Of a stretch of 64,000 bases of DNA, positions 8,259 to 59,464 are shown piece by piece. Position 1 is the stretch's first letter. The number at the start of each line of letters is the position of its first letter. The position numbers were made by a program, and so were the translations under genes. The notes under the pieces are model-generated. The model searched no databases. It worked only from the letters and a program-made list of their open reading frames with translations, and was not told the origin of the DNA. Location of the stretch: contig JAFDVJ010000005.1 of the NCBI GenBank assembly GCA_018269075.1, positions 1 to 64,000 on the forward strand, written 5' to 3'. This DNA comes from Acidobacteriota bacterium (lineage in GTDB: Bacteria > Acidobacteriota > Blastocatellia > Pyrinomonadales > Pyrinomonadaceae).

Positions 8259-11200
8259 TTAATTCAGAAAAGCAACAAAGGCGGCGGCCAATCTGTCGCG
8301 CCACGCCGTCCAATTATGCCCGGTCGGGCCTTCGAAATAAGTCACGGAATATCCCTTCGCACGCAGTAAAACATTGACGCGGCGCGTGTCTTCGGTGCCT
8401 TCGAACGCGCCGTCGTCGAGATAAAATTTGAACTTGTCGGGCGCGGCGTCGAGTTTTTCGAGCGCCTTTACGACCCGCTCGTCGTCGACCCAGAACGACG
8501 GGCTCTGACCGCCGATCCGCGAAAAAACCTCCGGATATTGCAGTCCGACCCAGACGCTCGTCACGCCGCCGAGCGAAGCGCCGATGATCGCGCGGCCTTC
8601 GCGGTCGCGGATCGTCCGGTATTTTTCGTCGATCGCGGGCACGACCTCGGTCGCGACGAACCGCGCGTAATCGTCCGACGCCCAGTATTCCTTCATCCGG
8701 TCTTTATAATCGATGAAAACCATTATAAACGGCCGGACCCTGCCGGCGGCGACGAGATTTTCCTGAATCTCGACGGCCTTCGCGCGGTTCAGATAATCGC
8801 TGCCGTCCTGAAAATAGACGACCGGGTAAAACGGGTTGGATTTTTTGAGCGAGAGCTGGACCTTGCCCTGCACCTGCGGGACGTAAACCTGTATTTTGCG
8901 GGTTTCGTTCCAGACTTTGGATTCGATCTCGACGGTTTCGAGCCGGCCGCGCGTCATCGCGCCCCGGTCCCACGGCGTCGGTTCGTATGAGGGCATCGCG
9001 AGCACCGAGTTTTCGCTGCCGACGCCGTTGTCGAGTTTATTCGGATTGAATTCGTCCGTCATCCATTTTCCGTCCACGATCAGTTTGTATTCCGTCCGCG
9101 CCGCCGGCGGCAGATCGAGCCGGACGGCAAACAGATCGGCCGCCGGCTTTTGCATAAAAATCCGGCCCGGGCTCCAGCTCGTCAGATCGCCGGCGACCAT
9201 CACGCTCTGTGCCGCGCCGCGGTAAAACAGGATCGGCTTACCGTCTTCGAACAGCGGGCTGGTTTTCGCGTTTTTGAGCTTTTCGATCGTTTCGGCCGAA
9301 AACCCGGGCGTTGCCGCTTTGCCGAGCGAGATCAGTTTGACGCGCTCGAAAGCGGTCGCGCCGCCGGGCAGCGCGGCCGCGACGATGCCGGTTTCTTCCT
9401 TTTCCGGCGCGTTGATTTCGAGCGTGAACCGGCCGTTTTCGTCGACCGGGACGAATTCCGTCCGGCCCTCGTAGAAAACGACGACCTTCGCGCCTTTGAC
9501 CGTTTGCCGATCGAGACGGAATTTTTCGCCGGCCCGCACCGGCAGCGTCACGCTTTGATCCGAAGTCCCGAAATTGGCGGCCTGCGGCGGAATGCCGTTT
9601 TTCACGTAACGGTCGTAGACGACGTCCGGCGTATCGAGATTTTTCCCGGCTTTGAGATTGACCGCGAGCCGGATAAACTGCGCCATCGACCACGCGAGCG
9701 GCGTCGCCGAGCCGGTTCCTTCGCCGAATTTGAGTTCCGGAACGAACTGCGAATCGGCCTTCGGCGTTTCGGGTTTGTCCCAGATCTGCTCGGGGATCAT
9801 CAGGCCTTCGTTGGCGAAACCGAGCATCGCGTCGAGCCGGCGGCGGGCGGCGGCTTCGACTTCGGCGATCGATCTTTCGGCCGGCGTCAGATTTCGCGGC
9901 AGCGATTTTTCGGCGGCATAAAATTTCTCGCGGCGGGCGCCGTAAAGCGCCAGCTCATACTGGCCGCGCTCGCCCGACAGCAGCGCCCACAAACGGCCCT
10001 TGCCGGTGTATTTCCCGTCCCAGTTCCAGCGGCGGCCGTCGTCCATCTCGCCGTAACCGTCGTGGTTGTAGCGGTAAAACGCCGCGCCGTTCGGCGTCTC
10101 GACCTTGATGACCTGATCGACGACTCTGAGAGATTTGACGATCAGCGGATCGTCGGGCGCTTTGATGCCGAGCCGGACGAGCTCGAGAAAACCGGCGTCG
10201 ACGATCTCGTTTTCCGGAAACGCGCCGGCGTTGTTGTTCAAAACCGTCTTCTCGCCGGCGTCAGGCCGGCCCTTTTCGCTCAGCCGGATATAATAATTGC
10301 CGTCGCCGTATTTCCCGTTCGTCGTCGCCGTCCACATCTCGACTTTCCGCGCCCAGTCGTCGGCCGCCGCGAGATAGACGGTCGCCGACGCTTCGTCCTT
10401 ATTCCGGCGCGCGATCTCGGCCGCGCAGACGAGGCCGGCGATCTCGGCAGCGATCGTCGACGGCGAGTAGCCGGATTTTTCCTCCCACCGTTCCTGCGGC
10501 GTCCACGGCCCGTTTCTGACGAGAAAATCGGCCGCTTTTTTGAGATGGTTCTCGTAGGTCGGGCGGTCGAAGCGATCGAGCTGCCAGGCGAGAATGAGCG
10601 GATAAGCGACCTCGTCCAGCTGGAGCGAGTTCCAGAACGGCCGGCCGTCGAGCCACGAATTCTGCGGAAAACTGCCGTCCGGTTTTTGCTGAATGTTCAG
10701 CAGGAAATCGAGCGCGCGGCTCGCGGCCGCCCTGTCGCCGAGCGCGATGTAGGCGGTCGCGACCTGATACAGATCGCGCGACCAGACGAGATGATAACCG
10801 CCGACGTTGTTCTCGTTGGCGTTGTCGCCGCCGCCCCACGGCACGGTCAGGGAGGCGATGTTCGCGCCGCGATGCGTTTTGTCTTCGAGCGCTTTGAGCT
10901 GCATCGCCGCCATATTGAACTGCGCCTGATATTTGGGTTCGACTTTCGGGAGCCCTTTCAAGTAGCTGATCCAACCTACCTGATATTCCTGATAGTTTTT
11001 TTCAAAACCTTTAACTAAAGATTCCTGCGCGGTTTTCAATGCTTCATCGGCAGTATTTCCGAACCCCAAAGAGATTTCAAAATTATAGCCTTTCGAATAA
11101 ACGGTCTTAATTTTGCCAGTTTGAATGACAATGCCATTTCCCAGGTCAAAAGAGTTCGAAAAAACAGGCGTTATCTTCGCCATTTGGACGACATTGCCAT

Positions 11201-11969
11201 TCTCCGCCCTGGCAAAAGCATCGAGAATTTTCCCGTCTTTTTTTAATTGGACTAAACCGTCTCCCGGCGTGCCGAGAAAACCATTCGTCAATTCCTCGAA
11301 TTTGCATTTACGACAGGTTAAAGCCGACGATTTATCTTTATCGGAGGACACCAGCGCATTGCCTTGCGACCAGGCCGAATCGCCCATTCCGCTGTTGGCG
11401 AGCGAAGGATCATAATAAACATAAAGTTGGTTATCGGGATTGTTGGTGATGAATTTTACGGAAATCACGACCGAATTATTCTTCGGATTTGTTACATATA
11501 TTTTTTCAATGCTCCAATCGCCGTTTTTTGACGAATTGGTCTGTTTGTAGGAAAGTGAGCTCGGACTTGAATAATTTTTATAAATGTCAAGGTCCGAAAT
11601 CGGGGAAATATCGTTCCTTAGGTTGATACTTAATGATTCGATTTTATGATTTGCATCGTCTTTTTCAGTTTCGACCCTTTTCGTTTTCGGGTTAACGACG
11701 ACGAACTGCAGGAGATGGACGTTGGCCTGCGTCACGTCCGGGTAATAGACCTCGGTCATCACGCCCTCGGCGAGCGTGAACCAGACCTTGCTCTCGAGCG
11801 TCGCGCTCGTGCCGACGCCCTGTTTGCCGGCGGTCGCCCACTGCGCGTCCTGACCCGGCCCGCCCGGCGCGAGCGTTTGGGCAATCGAGGAGGAAAATAA
11901 AATAAACCCAAAGACGCAAAGACGCAAAGGCGCAAAGATTTTCAAAATAAAACCATAAAACTGTTTCAC
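8259..11969 (-). CDS. Secreted GH15 glucoamylase/glucodextranase fused to CBM48-like and esterase domains
   Basis: Predicted 1236-aa exported enzyme starting at GTG 11969; the reading frame runs 222 bp further upstream, but only through a low-complexity array and the xylH gene. Residues 1-31 form a signal peptide. A glucodextranase-type N domain (about 40-310) precedes the GH15 alpha/alpha barrel (about 320-740, with LVWSRDLYQVAT near 391 and RRWNWDGKYTGKGRLWALL). A glycogen-binding CBM48-like segment (GDLTSWSPG, about 905-985) follows, then an esterase-D/enterochelin-esterase alpha/beta hydrolase (about 1010-1236) with nucleophile motif GASLGG near 1128 and a histidine in GHNW near 1217. GH15 releases glucose from alpha-glucan ends; the esterase substrate is unknown. 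Typical glucoamylases stop at about 800 aa, so this is a fusion. Confidence 0.88.
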   Translation of the reverse strand: MKQFYGFILKIFAPLRLCVFGFILFSSSIAQTLAPGGPGQDAQWATAGKQGVGTSATLESKVWFTLAEGVMTEVYYPDVTQANVHLLQFVVVNPKTKRVETEKDDANHKIESLSINLRNDISPISDLDIYKNYSSPSSLSYKQTNSSKNGDWSIEKIYVTNPKNNSVVISVKFITNNPDNQLYVYYDPSLANSGMGDSAWSQGNALVSSDKDKSSALTCRKCKFEELTNGFLGTPGDGLVQLKKDGKILDAFARAENGNVVQMAKITPVFSNSFDLGNGIVIQTGKIKTVYSKGYNFEISLGFGNTADEALKTAQESLVKGFEKNYQEYQVGWISYLKGLPKVEPKYQAQFNMAAMQLKALEDKTHRGANIASLTVPWGGGDNANENNVGGYHLVWSRDLYQVATAYIALGDRAAASRALDFLLNIQQKPDGSFPQNSWLDGRPFWNSLQLDEVAYPLILAWQLDRFDRPTYENHLKKAADFLVRNGPWTPQERWEEKSGYSPSTIAAEIAGLVCAAEIARRNKDEASATVYLAAADDWARKVEMWTATTNGKYGDGNYYIRLSEKGRPDAGEKTVLNNNAGAFPENEIVDAGFLELVRLGIKAPDDPLIVKSLRVVDQVIKVETPNGAAFYRYNHDGYGEMDDGRRWNWDGKYTGKGRLWALLSGERGQYELALYGARREKFYAAEKSLPRNLTPAERSIAEVEAAARRRLDAMLGFANEGLMIPEQIWDKPETPKADSQFVPELKFGEGTGSATPLAWSMAQFIRLAVNLKAGKNLDTPDVVYDRYVKNGIPPQAANFGTSDQSVTLPVRAGEKFRLDRQTVKGAKVVVFYEGRTEFVPVDENGRFTLEINAPEKEETGIVAAALPGGATAFERVKLISLGKAATPGFSAETIEKLKNAKTSPLFEDGKPILFYRGAAQSVMVAGDLTSWSPGRIFMQKPAADLFAVRLDLPPAARTEYKLIVDGKWMTDEFNPNKLDNGVGSENSVLAMPSYEPTPWDRGAMTRGRLETVEIESKVWNETRKIQVYVPQVQGKVQLSLKKSNPFYPVVYFQDGSDYLNRAKAVEIQENLVAAGRVRPFIMVFIDYKDRMKEYWASDDYARFVATEVVPAIDEKYRTIRDREGRAIIGASLGGVTSVWVGLQYPEVFSRIGGQSPSFWVDDERVVKALEKLDAAPDKFKFYLDDGAFEGTEDTRRVNVLLRAKGYSVTYFEGPTGHNWTAWRDRLAAAFVAFLN
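11907..11940 (-). repeat. Nonamer (GCAAAGACG-type) array inside a signal-peptide coding region
   Basis: On the plus strand AAGACGCAAAGACGC then AAAGGCGCAAAGA repeats with a 9-bp period. On the coding (minus) strand it encodes FAPLRLCVFGF, the hydrophobic core of the glucoamylase signal peptide. A related nonamer sequence occurs as an intergenic inverted repeat at 52990-53140, so a dispersed repeat appears to have been used as secretory signal sequence. Confidence 0.75.
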
Positions 11970-11974
11970 AAAAT

Positions 11975-12050
11975 CTCCCCTTCTCCTTTTCTCCTTTTCT
12001 CCTCTTCTCCCCTTCTCCCCTTCTCCCCTTCTCCCTTTCTCCTCTTCTCC
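11975..12050 (-). repeat. Octamer array of ten Shine-Dalgarno-like GGAG motifs
   Basis: CTCC on the plus strand recurs at 11975, 11983, 11991, 11999, 12007, 12015, 12023, 12031, 12039 and 12047, an exact 8-bp period. The mRNA sense strand therefore reads as ten purine-only units of the type GGAGAAGG. The last GGAG is 5 nt before the GTG start of the glucoamylase fusion, an ideal ribosome-binding distance. The array fills the gap after the xylH stop codon. Confidence 0.93.
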
Positions 12051-12052
12051 CG

Positions 12053-13201
12053 CTAACTCTTCCGTCCCGCCATATCCGCGCCGACCGCCGCGACGAGAAT
12101 CGCGCCCTTGACGATTTCCTGAACGAAATCGCGGATGTTCAGAAGCGACATCCCGTTGTCGAGACTCGCCATAATCAGCGCCCCGAGACACGCGCCGAAG
12201 ACCGTGCCGCGGCCGCCCATCAGGCTCGCGCCGCCGATCACGCAGGCGGCGATCGCTTCGAGTTCCTTCAAGGTTCCGGCATCCGGCGTCGCGCTGCCCT
12301 GCCGCGCCGTGAAGACGATCGCGGCGATCCCCGTCAACACGCCGAGCAGCATATAAACCTTGAGAATATTGCGTTTCGTGTCGATGCCCGAAAGCCGCGC
12401 GGCGTCCGAGTTGCCGCCGATCGCGTAGAGATACCGGCCGAAGGTCGTCGAGTTGGTAACGAACGTCCCGAATATCGCGACCGCGAGAAAGATCAGCACC
12501 GGCACCGGCACGCCGCCCGACGAGTTCATCGCGACGACGAAGGCGACGATCGCGATGATCGGCAGGATCGTCTTGAGCAGCTCCTTTTTGTAGTCGGCTT
12601 CGCCCAACCCGTAGTCCTTCTGCGATTTGGCGCGCTGAAAGGCGAAGAACAGGAGCGCCGCGATCGCCAGTGCGCCGAGACCCCAGCCGGTTCCGAGCGT
12701 CATCAGACCCTGACCGAAGGTTTTAAATGTCTGGTCGGCGACCGAGACCGTTTCGCTGTGCGAAACGCCCTTGATCGCCCCGCGCCACGCGAGCAGACCG
12801 CCGAGCGTCACGATAAAGGCCGGGATCTTGCCGTAGGCGACGAGCGTGCCGTGGATGATGCCGATCGCGACGCCGACGGCGATCGCGAGCAGGATCGAAA
12901 CACCCAGGCCGTAACCCCAGTTGGTCAGCGCGATCGCCGCGACGCCGCCGGCAAGCGCGAGCACCGACCCGACCGACAGATCGATCTGCCCGGCGACGAT
13001 CAGCATCAGCATCCCGACCGCCAGAATGCCCGTCACCGACGTCTGGAGCATCAGGTTCGACAGATTGCCCGACGACAGAAACGTGCCGCCGGTCTGCCAG
13101 TGGAAAAACAGCCAGATCAGGATCAGCGCCCCGAGCATCGTGTACGCCCGGAGCGACGACGTTTCGATTTTAAAACCTTTCGATTGTTCTTGTTCACTCA
13201 T
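12053..13201 (-). CDS. xylH: Sugar ABC transporter permease, XylH-like
   Basis: Inner-membrane permease of a CUT2-type monosaccharide importer (xylose/ribose/glucose group). About ten hydrophobic segments are visible from residue 20 onward. The family motif GQIDLSVGSVLALAGGVAA lies near 70-90, and the EELEAIAACVIGGASLMGGRG-like segment near 315-335 marks the BPD_transp_2 fold (this copy reads LKELEAIAACVIGG). 382 aa matches XylH rather than the shorter RbsC. It follows xylG by about 90 bp and precedes the glucoamylase fusion. The exact sugar cannot be told from the sequence. Confidence 0.9.
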   Translation of the reverse strand: MSEQEQSKGFKIETSSLRAYTMLGALILIWLFFHWQTGGTFLSSGNLSNLMLQTSVTGILAVGMLMLIVAGQIDLSVGSVLALAGGVAAIALTNWGYGLGVSILLAIAVGVAIGIIHGTLVAYGKIPAFIVTLGGLLAWRGAIKGVSHSETVSVADQTFKTFGQGLMTLGTGWGLGALAIAALLFFAFQRAKSQKDYGLGEADYKKELLKTILPIIAIVAFVVAMNSSGGVPVPVLIFLAVAIFGTFVTNSTTFGRYLYAIGGNSDAARLSGIDTKRNILKVYMLLGVLTGIAAIVFTARQGSATPDAGTLKELEAIAACVIGGASLMGGRGTVFGACLGALIMASLDNGMSLLNIRDFVQEIVKGAILVAAVGADMAGRKS

Positions 13202-14815: not shown

Positions 14816-14880
14816 GAGTGGAGAGTGGAGAGTAGAGAGTGGAGAGTCAAATGAATCTCTCCACTCTTCACTCTCTACTC
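14816..14880 (-). repeat. Inverted GTGGAGA heptamer array between xylF and xylG
   Basis: The left arm (14816-14847) has four copies of GTGGAGA/GTAGAGA and the right arm (14857-14880) three reverse-complement copies, with a 9-nt loop. The right arm ends one base before the xylF stop codon and the left arm ends 7 nt before the xylG ATG. The same 7-mer builds the arrays at 57210-57257 and 57923-58003. Confidence 0.92.
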
Positions 14881-56852: not shown

Positions 56853-57179
56853 ATGGCAAATTTTATTGAAATTGAAACTCTCGAAGATCTCGAACGGATT
56901 TTTGAAAAATCGAAACATCAGTCGGTCGTATTGTTCAAACACTCGGTCACCTGTCCGATCAGCACGGGCGTATATTACGAGATGAACGCCGTCGACGGCG
57001 ACGTCAATCTCGTCGTCGTCCAGGCGGCGCGCGCGATCTCCAACGAGATCGCCGCGAAAACCGGCATTCGCCACGAATCGCCGCAGGCGATCGTCCTGAA
57101 AGGCGGCCGCGCCGTTTTTCACGCCTCGCATTACGACATCACGGCCAACGACATCAAACGGGTGACGAGTAACGAGTAA
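56853..57179 (+). CDS. ytxJ: YtxJ-like thioredoxin-fold redox protein
   Basis: 108-aa monothiol bacilliredoxin-type protein (YtxJ/DUF2847). The redox motif HSVTCPIS is at 30-37 with Cys34 as the likely active site, followed by a thioredoxin-like beta strand VNLVVVQAARAISNEIAAKTG. The family reduces protein-bacillithiol mixed disulfides, so the organism may make bacillithiol. The last residues TSNE and the stop codon are encoded by the first units of a heptamer array, so the 3' end has probably been replaced or extended by repeat sequence. Confidence 0.88.
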   Translation: MANFIEIETLEDLERIFEKSKHQSVVLFKHSVTCPISTGVYYEMNAVDGDVNLVVVQAARAISNEIAAKTGIRHESPQAIVLKGGRAVFHASHYDITANDIKRVTSNE

Positions 57180-57257
57180 CGAGTCGAGAGTCGAGAGTCG
57201 AGAGCCAAAGGAAAAAAGTCAATCGGACTCTCCACTCTCCACTCTCCACTCTCCACT
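57165..57257 (+). repeat. Inverted heptamer array overlapping the ytxJ stop codon
   Basis: The left arm (57165-57205) has three units of ACGAGTA/C and three of GAGAGTC. The right arm (57226-57257) has four and a half units of ACTCTCC. The left arm includes the last codons and stop of ytxJ. The right arm ends 6 nt before the DUF971 start. The arms match partly, left units being GAGAGTC rather than GGAGAGT. Confidence 0.9.
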
Positions 57258-57556: not shown

Positions 57557-57632
57557 GTTTCGGAAGTTCAGGAAGTTCAGGAAGTTCAGGATGAAATCAA
57601 CCAACTTCCCAAACTTCCCAAACTTCCCGAAC
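57557..57632 (+). repeat. Inverted nonamer array after the DUF971 gene
   Basis: The left arm (57559-57592) has three copies of GGAAGTTCA; the right arm (57602-57632) has three of ACTTCCCAA. They pair with regular G-T or mismatch positions around a loop of about 10 nt. The unit AACTTCCC recurs at 63542-63572. The array fills the gap to the next gene. Confidence 0.9.
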
Positions 57633-57644
57633 TAAAAAAGAAGT

Positions 57645-59336: not shown

Positions 59337-59464
59337 AGTCCTGAGTCTTGAGTCTTAAGTCTTGAGTCCTCGTTTCTGACTTTGATCATTGCTGTTGATC
59401 CTGGATTTCGACCCAAGACTCAAGACTCAAGACTCAAGACTTAAGACTCAAGACTCAAGACTCA
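59337..59464 (-). repeat. Inverted AGTCTTG heptamer array between asparaginase and slipin genes
   Basis: The left arm (59337-59370) has five units AGTCYTR; the right arm (59415-59464) has seven units of AGACTYA. The AGTCTTA variant on the left has a matching TAAGACT-type unit on the right. The right arm ends inside the stop codon of the upstream gene (59462-59464). The left arm and start of the loop are almost identical to those at 61623-61655. Confidence 0.93.

Follow-up and report, generated by a model that had tools for sequence, protein, structure and literature searches.

The ten GGAG motifs that form the leader of a predicted glucoamylase gene are a copy of a dispersed tandem repeat, in which, in our judgement, the Shine-Dalgarno (SD) sequence next to the start codon quite probably works and the nine upstream copies are mostly neutral for translation. 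The array was found in a stretch of 64,000 nucleotides from an Acidobacteriota genome (hereafter the window), for which the closest named relatives were draft genomes of Pyrinomonadaceae and other Acidobacteriota. The gene that follows the array (8259–11969, minus strand) encodes a secreted protein of 1236 aa with Glucodextran_N, GH15, AMPK1_CBM (CBM48-like) and esterase parts, as indicated by Pfam and NCBIfam, and the gene upstream of it (12053–13201, minus strand) encodes an ABC permease (Pfam, BPD_transp_2). The genes for an ABC ATPase and a binding protein before the permease, and a ROK-family gene after the enzyme gene, all lie on the same strand, which suggests that the permease, the enzyme gene and these neighbours form a sugar-uptake operon.

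The leader array and its start-proximal unit

On the minus strand, from 12050 down to 11975, GGAG occurs ten times with an exact period of 8 nt, and the nearest copy ends 5 nt upstream of a GTG start codon (11969–11967). Read 5ʹ to 3ʹ, the leader consists of the TAG stop codon of the permease gene (2 nt before the first GGAG), C, GGGAGAAG AGGAGAAA GGGAGAAG GGGAGAAG GGGAGAAG GGGAGAAG AGGAGAAA AGGAGAAA AGGAGAAG GGGAGATTTT and GTG. The array of GGAGAAGR/GGAGAAAR units (11975–12050, minus strand) thus takes up the whole 83-nt gap between the permease stop codon and the enzyme gene. TRF called it at 11974–12051, with a period of 8 and 9.8 copies. When 100 first-order Markov versions of the window were generated, GGAG at 8-nt spacing never ran to more than 3 copies, and therefore a run of ten is not a product of chance. 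The layout described in an earlier sequence-only reading, ten GGAG every 8 nt with the last one 5 nt before a GTG, was in this way borne out by the sequence, by TRF and by the Markov versions.

Relative to the start, the units are positioned every 8 nt from −9 (the second at −17) out to −81, the upstream nine being 17–81 nt away. For all ten, the duplex energy with a generic anti-SD was between −7.4 and −9.4 kcal/mol; the generic sequence was used here, as the pattern searched did not locate the 3ʹ end of the genome's own 16S. Several units can therefore pair with this anti-SD in a leader of no unusual structure, since the predicted RNA folding showed no excess over shuffled sequences (z = +1.13). 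A search of the leader in Rfam gave no match, and a consensus scan of 1500 nt revealed no sigma-70-like promoter in or beside the array and no terminator within it.

To see which parts of the leader are conserved, we aligned the junction with two congeneric orthologues, L047 (genome G031) and L062 (genome G029). The end of the permease gene was conserved, and was followed by a variable stretch and then by GGGGAGATTTTGTG, GGGGAGATTTTATG and GGGAGAATTTTATG. GGGAGA, a TTTT spacer and RTG were retained in all three sequences. GTG (11967–11969, minus strand) is replaced by ATG at the aligned place in both L047 and L062, which supports the earlier assignment of translation start to this codon and makes it the likely start of the glucoamylase gene. 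The start-proximal GGAG (11975–11978, minus strand, −9 to −6) was the only copy conserved in both orthologues, and, on the evidence of the alignment and the duplex energies, it is probably the working SD sequence of the gene. It is nearer to the start than the favoured position, as SD-like 4-mers in the same genome peak near −12 (the gene caller applied a small SD bonus), yet it is still within range. Given this short distance, the second copy, at −17, could share the SD work.

In the variable stretch, the leader of L047 contains four GGAG units in the same 8-nt register as in the window, so that two species of the genus have arrays of unequal length (10 units against 4), and the leader of L062 contains an unrelated AAGGCAAA-type array and keeps no upstream GGAG copies. 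Ten copies are therefore not needed. The four in-register units of L047 nevertheless speak against neutrality of the upstream copies: a short tandem SD array predates the split between the window's species and that of L047, and some function might maintain it.

A dispersed octamer family at gene borders

The array pattern was present at 304 places in the window's own genome when up to two mismatches were allowed, and at 75 places in exact form; the exact pattern occurred 0, 1 and 0 times in three congeneric genomes, and the pattern was present in 8 of the 118 genomes of the order. This dispersal does not figure in the sequence-only reading. In 1.55 Mb sampled from the own genome we found 1288 tandem arrays of period 5–12, including 63 GGAG octamer arrays. 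These absolute counts are inflated, because the sample was partly picked for holding arrays, and comparisons of orientation and position are less affected. Arrays covered 16% of bases 0–25 nt after stop codons, where their density peaked, 5.6% of the last 25 nt before starts, and 0.2–0.9% inside coding sequences. All 55 octamer arrays of the sample located 0–30 nt after stops were purine-rich in sense. Two or more GGAG in sense were seen in 56 arrays after stops; within 30 nt before starts they were seen in one array and in that of the window, versus 21 arrays with CTCC. The window array had escaped the start-side count, as the gene caller set the start too far downstream, and was added separately. 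Many arrays per genome, a bias to gene borders and an abundance specific to the lineage are all features of a dispersed intergenic short tandem repeat (6–9-nt unit), and the array of the window, directly after a stop codon and with its purine strand in sense, has the common arrangement of the octamer family. The purine bias on the stop side and the scarcity of GGAG in sense before starts indicate that position and orientation of the array follow the habit of the repeat and not selection for ribosome loading. The family also occurs as inverted pairs, of which 18 were found, with the purine arm first in 18/18 and with spacers mostly of 60–68 nt, the cores of which group into several homologous families.

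We propose that the array is an unpaired purine arm of this lineage-expanded octamer family, placed directly after the permease stop codon, and that, the gap to the next operon gene being short, it came to form the entire glucoamylase leader. The last unit (GGGGAGA, TTTT spacer, GTG) would be the conserved SD that starts translation at GTG 11969. The upstream nine copies would have arisen by repeat expansion; they can bind the anti-SD, but at 17–81 nt from the start they would provide at best an unstructured standby region of modest aid. The data show membership of the repeat family, its habit of position and orientation, and conservation restricted to the proximal SD and the start; that translation uses the proximal SD and that the remaining copies are near-neutral is inferred.

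As a repeat, the GGAG array resembles the G-rich heptamers that form arrays in Xanthomonas (GGGAATC) and Nostoc (GGGGAYT), which likewise tend to follow stop codons (PMC4692102). It differs from them in being an octamer, GGAGAAGR, from another phylum, one copy of which lies directly against a start codon and provides the probable SD. The TAACTGA direct repeats of marine Beggiatoaceae are located directly upstream of starts, and a translational role has been proposed for them (PMC4679880). Both these repeats and the window array are short tandem repeats immediately before a start codon; however, TAACTGA repeats are as a class associated with starts and replace the SD, whereas GGAG arrays are as a class associated with stops and contain SD-like sequence. 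Most TAACTGA-type arrays would be expected before starts in one orientation, which is the reverse of the GGAG distribution given above.

Several other features of the repeats were noticed. The paired GGAG elements with a core of ~66 nt fall into at least three homologous families (L109, L111, L126 and L129; L110, L131 and L139; L116 and L132); several of them are able to form a long hairpin and they are also found inside predicted genes, so that they look like composite non-autonomous elements. Facing pairs of heptamer or nonamer arrays, made of other units in the same architecture, stand a short distance apart in the window (57174–57257, 57562–57633, 59337–59464 and 1526–1604). CTCC-sense (anti-SD-like) arrays were located 4–27 nt before starts in 21 cases in the sample, for example in the window at 57227, at 14816 and in other ACTCTCC arrays. 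The earlier contrast between the GGAG array and other arrays said to lack any SD is mostly right near starts: an SD 4-mer of any kind was present in sense in 11 of 131 start-abutting arrays. The commonest array unit of the sampled genome was AAATCCG (207 arrays). Close to the N terminus of some predicted proteins, in-frame AATCCGA arrays are translated as (KSEIRNP)n (L084:12447, L094:3425, L105:15904 and L146:12722), and these stretches may be mis-called starts or real N-terminal extensions.

Possible functions of the upstream copies

The sequence-only reading had offered the array as a possible ribosome-loading platform. In such a platform, upstream GGAG copies would bind 30S subunits in an unstructured leader and hand them over to the GTG, thereby raising or buffering translation of the enzyme. 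Such an effect is physically plausible, as high translation has been reported in some cases for E. coli leaders and reporter libraries (PMC9844084). Every unit equals the proximal one in its pairing with the generic anti-SD and the leader is no more structured than its shuffles, but L062 has an unrelated repeat in place of the upstream copies, and, the four units of L047 notwithstanding, GGAG-sense arrays in this genome seldom precede starts but often follow stops. Moreover, when 30 loci with four GGAG plus ATG from the 118 related genomes were examined, only the G031 orthologue had a convincing real start; at L214 the candidate leader was rejected, as its array follows a stop codon and the real start is likely further down. 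As the reason for the existence of the array, a platform is thus unsupported, since the family is dispersed on the stop side and the upstream copies are poorly kept in orthologues (four of ten units in L047, no upstream ones in L062), and we consider it unlikely. If it were a platform, the array would offer a rare chance to test tandem SD sites in nature; the evidence points instead to an accident of the repeat, with a single SD at work.

The same reading had also suggested a phase-variable switch. Switching of the frame is excluded, because the array stops short of the start codon; what stands is that copy number can vary without a frame change, as in the two species with 10 and 4 units. A change in length would affect neither the frame nor, in the lack of a sigma-70-like promoter match, promoter spacing. 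A copy-number contingency locus, where octamer slippage would alter leader length and tune expression between cells, would find a near-perfect octamer array to act on, yet the mixed unit variants speak against very rapid homogenising slippage, and a change of spacing upstream of a fixed SD is expected to matter little. Simple repeats in mRNA leaders do tune expression in other bacteria, as the G-repeat of Helicobacter pylori tlpB does together with the sRNA RepG (PMC8295292), and as do the leader repeats of the Streptococcus gallolyticus pilus operon pil1 (PMC3894217). Those repeats are phase-variable, whereas the length difference of the window array is one between species, the window's own species being represented by one genome. 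We regard a contingency locus as very improbable.

Least probable of all, by a small margin in our estimate, is a platform for an RNA-binding protein or RNA structure, in which CsrA on the repeated GGA, or a G-quadruplex, would repress or modulate translation: csrA is present in the genome, a potential G-quadruplex motif, GGGAGAAGGGGAGAAGGGGAGAAGGGG, lies within the array (12009–12035, minus strand; maximum G4Hunter window 2.16), and the G-rich repeats of Xanthomonas and Nostoc form G-quadruplexes (PMC4692102), but the L047 leader lacks the four runs of at least three G, the array is absent in L062, ANGGA occurs in only 3 of the 10 units, and nothing links CsrA to the glucoamylase gene, so that either role is weakly supported.

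The signal-peptide array and paired repeat elements

Besides the leader copy of the dispersed repeat, the 5ʹ end of the gene contains a second octamer array, CTTTGCGY (11909–11938, minus strand), recognised by TRF, translation and tandem score, which encodes the hydrophobic core of the signal peptide (...IFAPLRLCVFGFILF...). Its tandem score was above those of all 200 shuffles, and CTTTGCGY is itself a dispersed repeat, which 41 of the 118 related genomes contain. We compared the 5ʹ regions of orthologues, 33 of them distinct, and called signal peptides by eye and hydrophobicity; the signal-peptide stretch was more tandem-repetitive than expected in 15 (p < 0.05), and in 8 of them at < 0.01, and the tandem unit differed between species. 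Eight orthologues (L015, L018, L024, L031, L037, L062, L064 and L066) had a long inverted copy of the signal-peptide repeat upstream, near or after the stop codon of the previous gene, with the start codon between the two arms and the second arm coding for the signal peptide. This paired inverted element was present in 8/33 orthologues versus 1/110 control genes from the same loci (Fisher p = 3e-5); the one positive control is probably a mis-called start, and the controls included genes other than those for secreted proteins. L062, one of the eight, has a full inverted pair and is a direct orthologue from a congeneric genome. The window also has both arms, yet they are not complementary: the best inverted match scored 7.8, which did not exceed shuffled sequences.

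These comparisons suggest that paired repeat elements have repeatedly provided secreted enzymes with a leader, a start context and a signal peptide. For the glucoamylase gene itself, we hold it as a serious but tentative possibility, a little less probable than its opposite, that the 5ʹ end derives from the domestication of a paired tandem-repeat element, whose purine arm, set behind the permease stop codon, would have given the SD, whose spacer would hold the start and whose pyrimidine arm would have given the core of the signal peptide, with different units refilling the site across species. A likeness exists to bacterial MITE and palindromic elements, which are also dispersed inverted-repeat DNA that gives rise to coding sequence by in-frame fusion, one Yersinia element partly forming a signal peptide (reviewed in PMC2229807). 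Here, by contrast, the arms are tandem 7–10-mers, a single orthologous site hosts several unrelated units, and the two arms flank the start codon. Our literature search yielded no account of signal peptides encoded by repeats in Acidobacteriota. This wider pattern, in which dispersed tandem repeats of Pyrinomonadaceae would repeatedly become the leader and signal peptide of secreted enzymes, is weightier than the single array; if true, it offers a simple route from non-coding repeats to translation-initiation and secretion signals.

CTTTGCGY was also seen to encode signal-peptide-like hydrophobic N termini (LRLCVFA-type) in several unrelated putative secreted proteins, in the window (11909–11938) and at L190, L199, L188 and L182.
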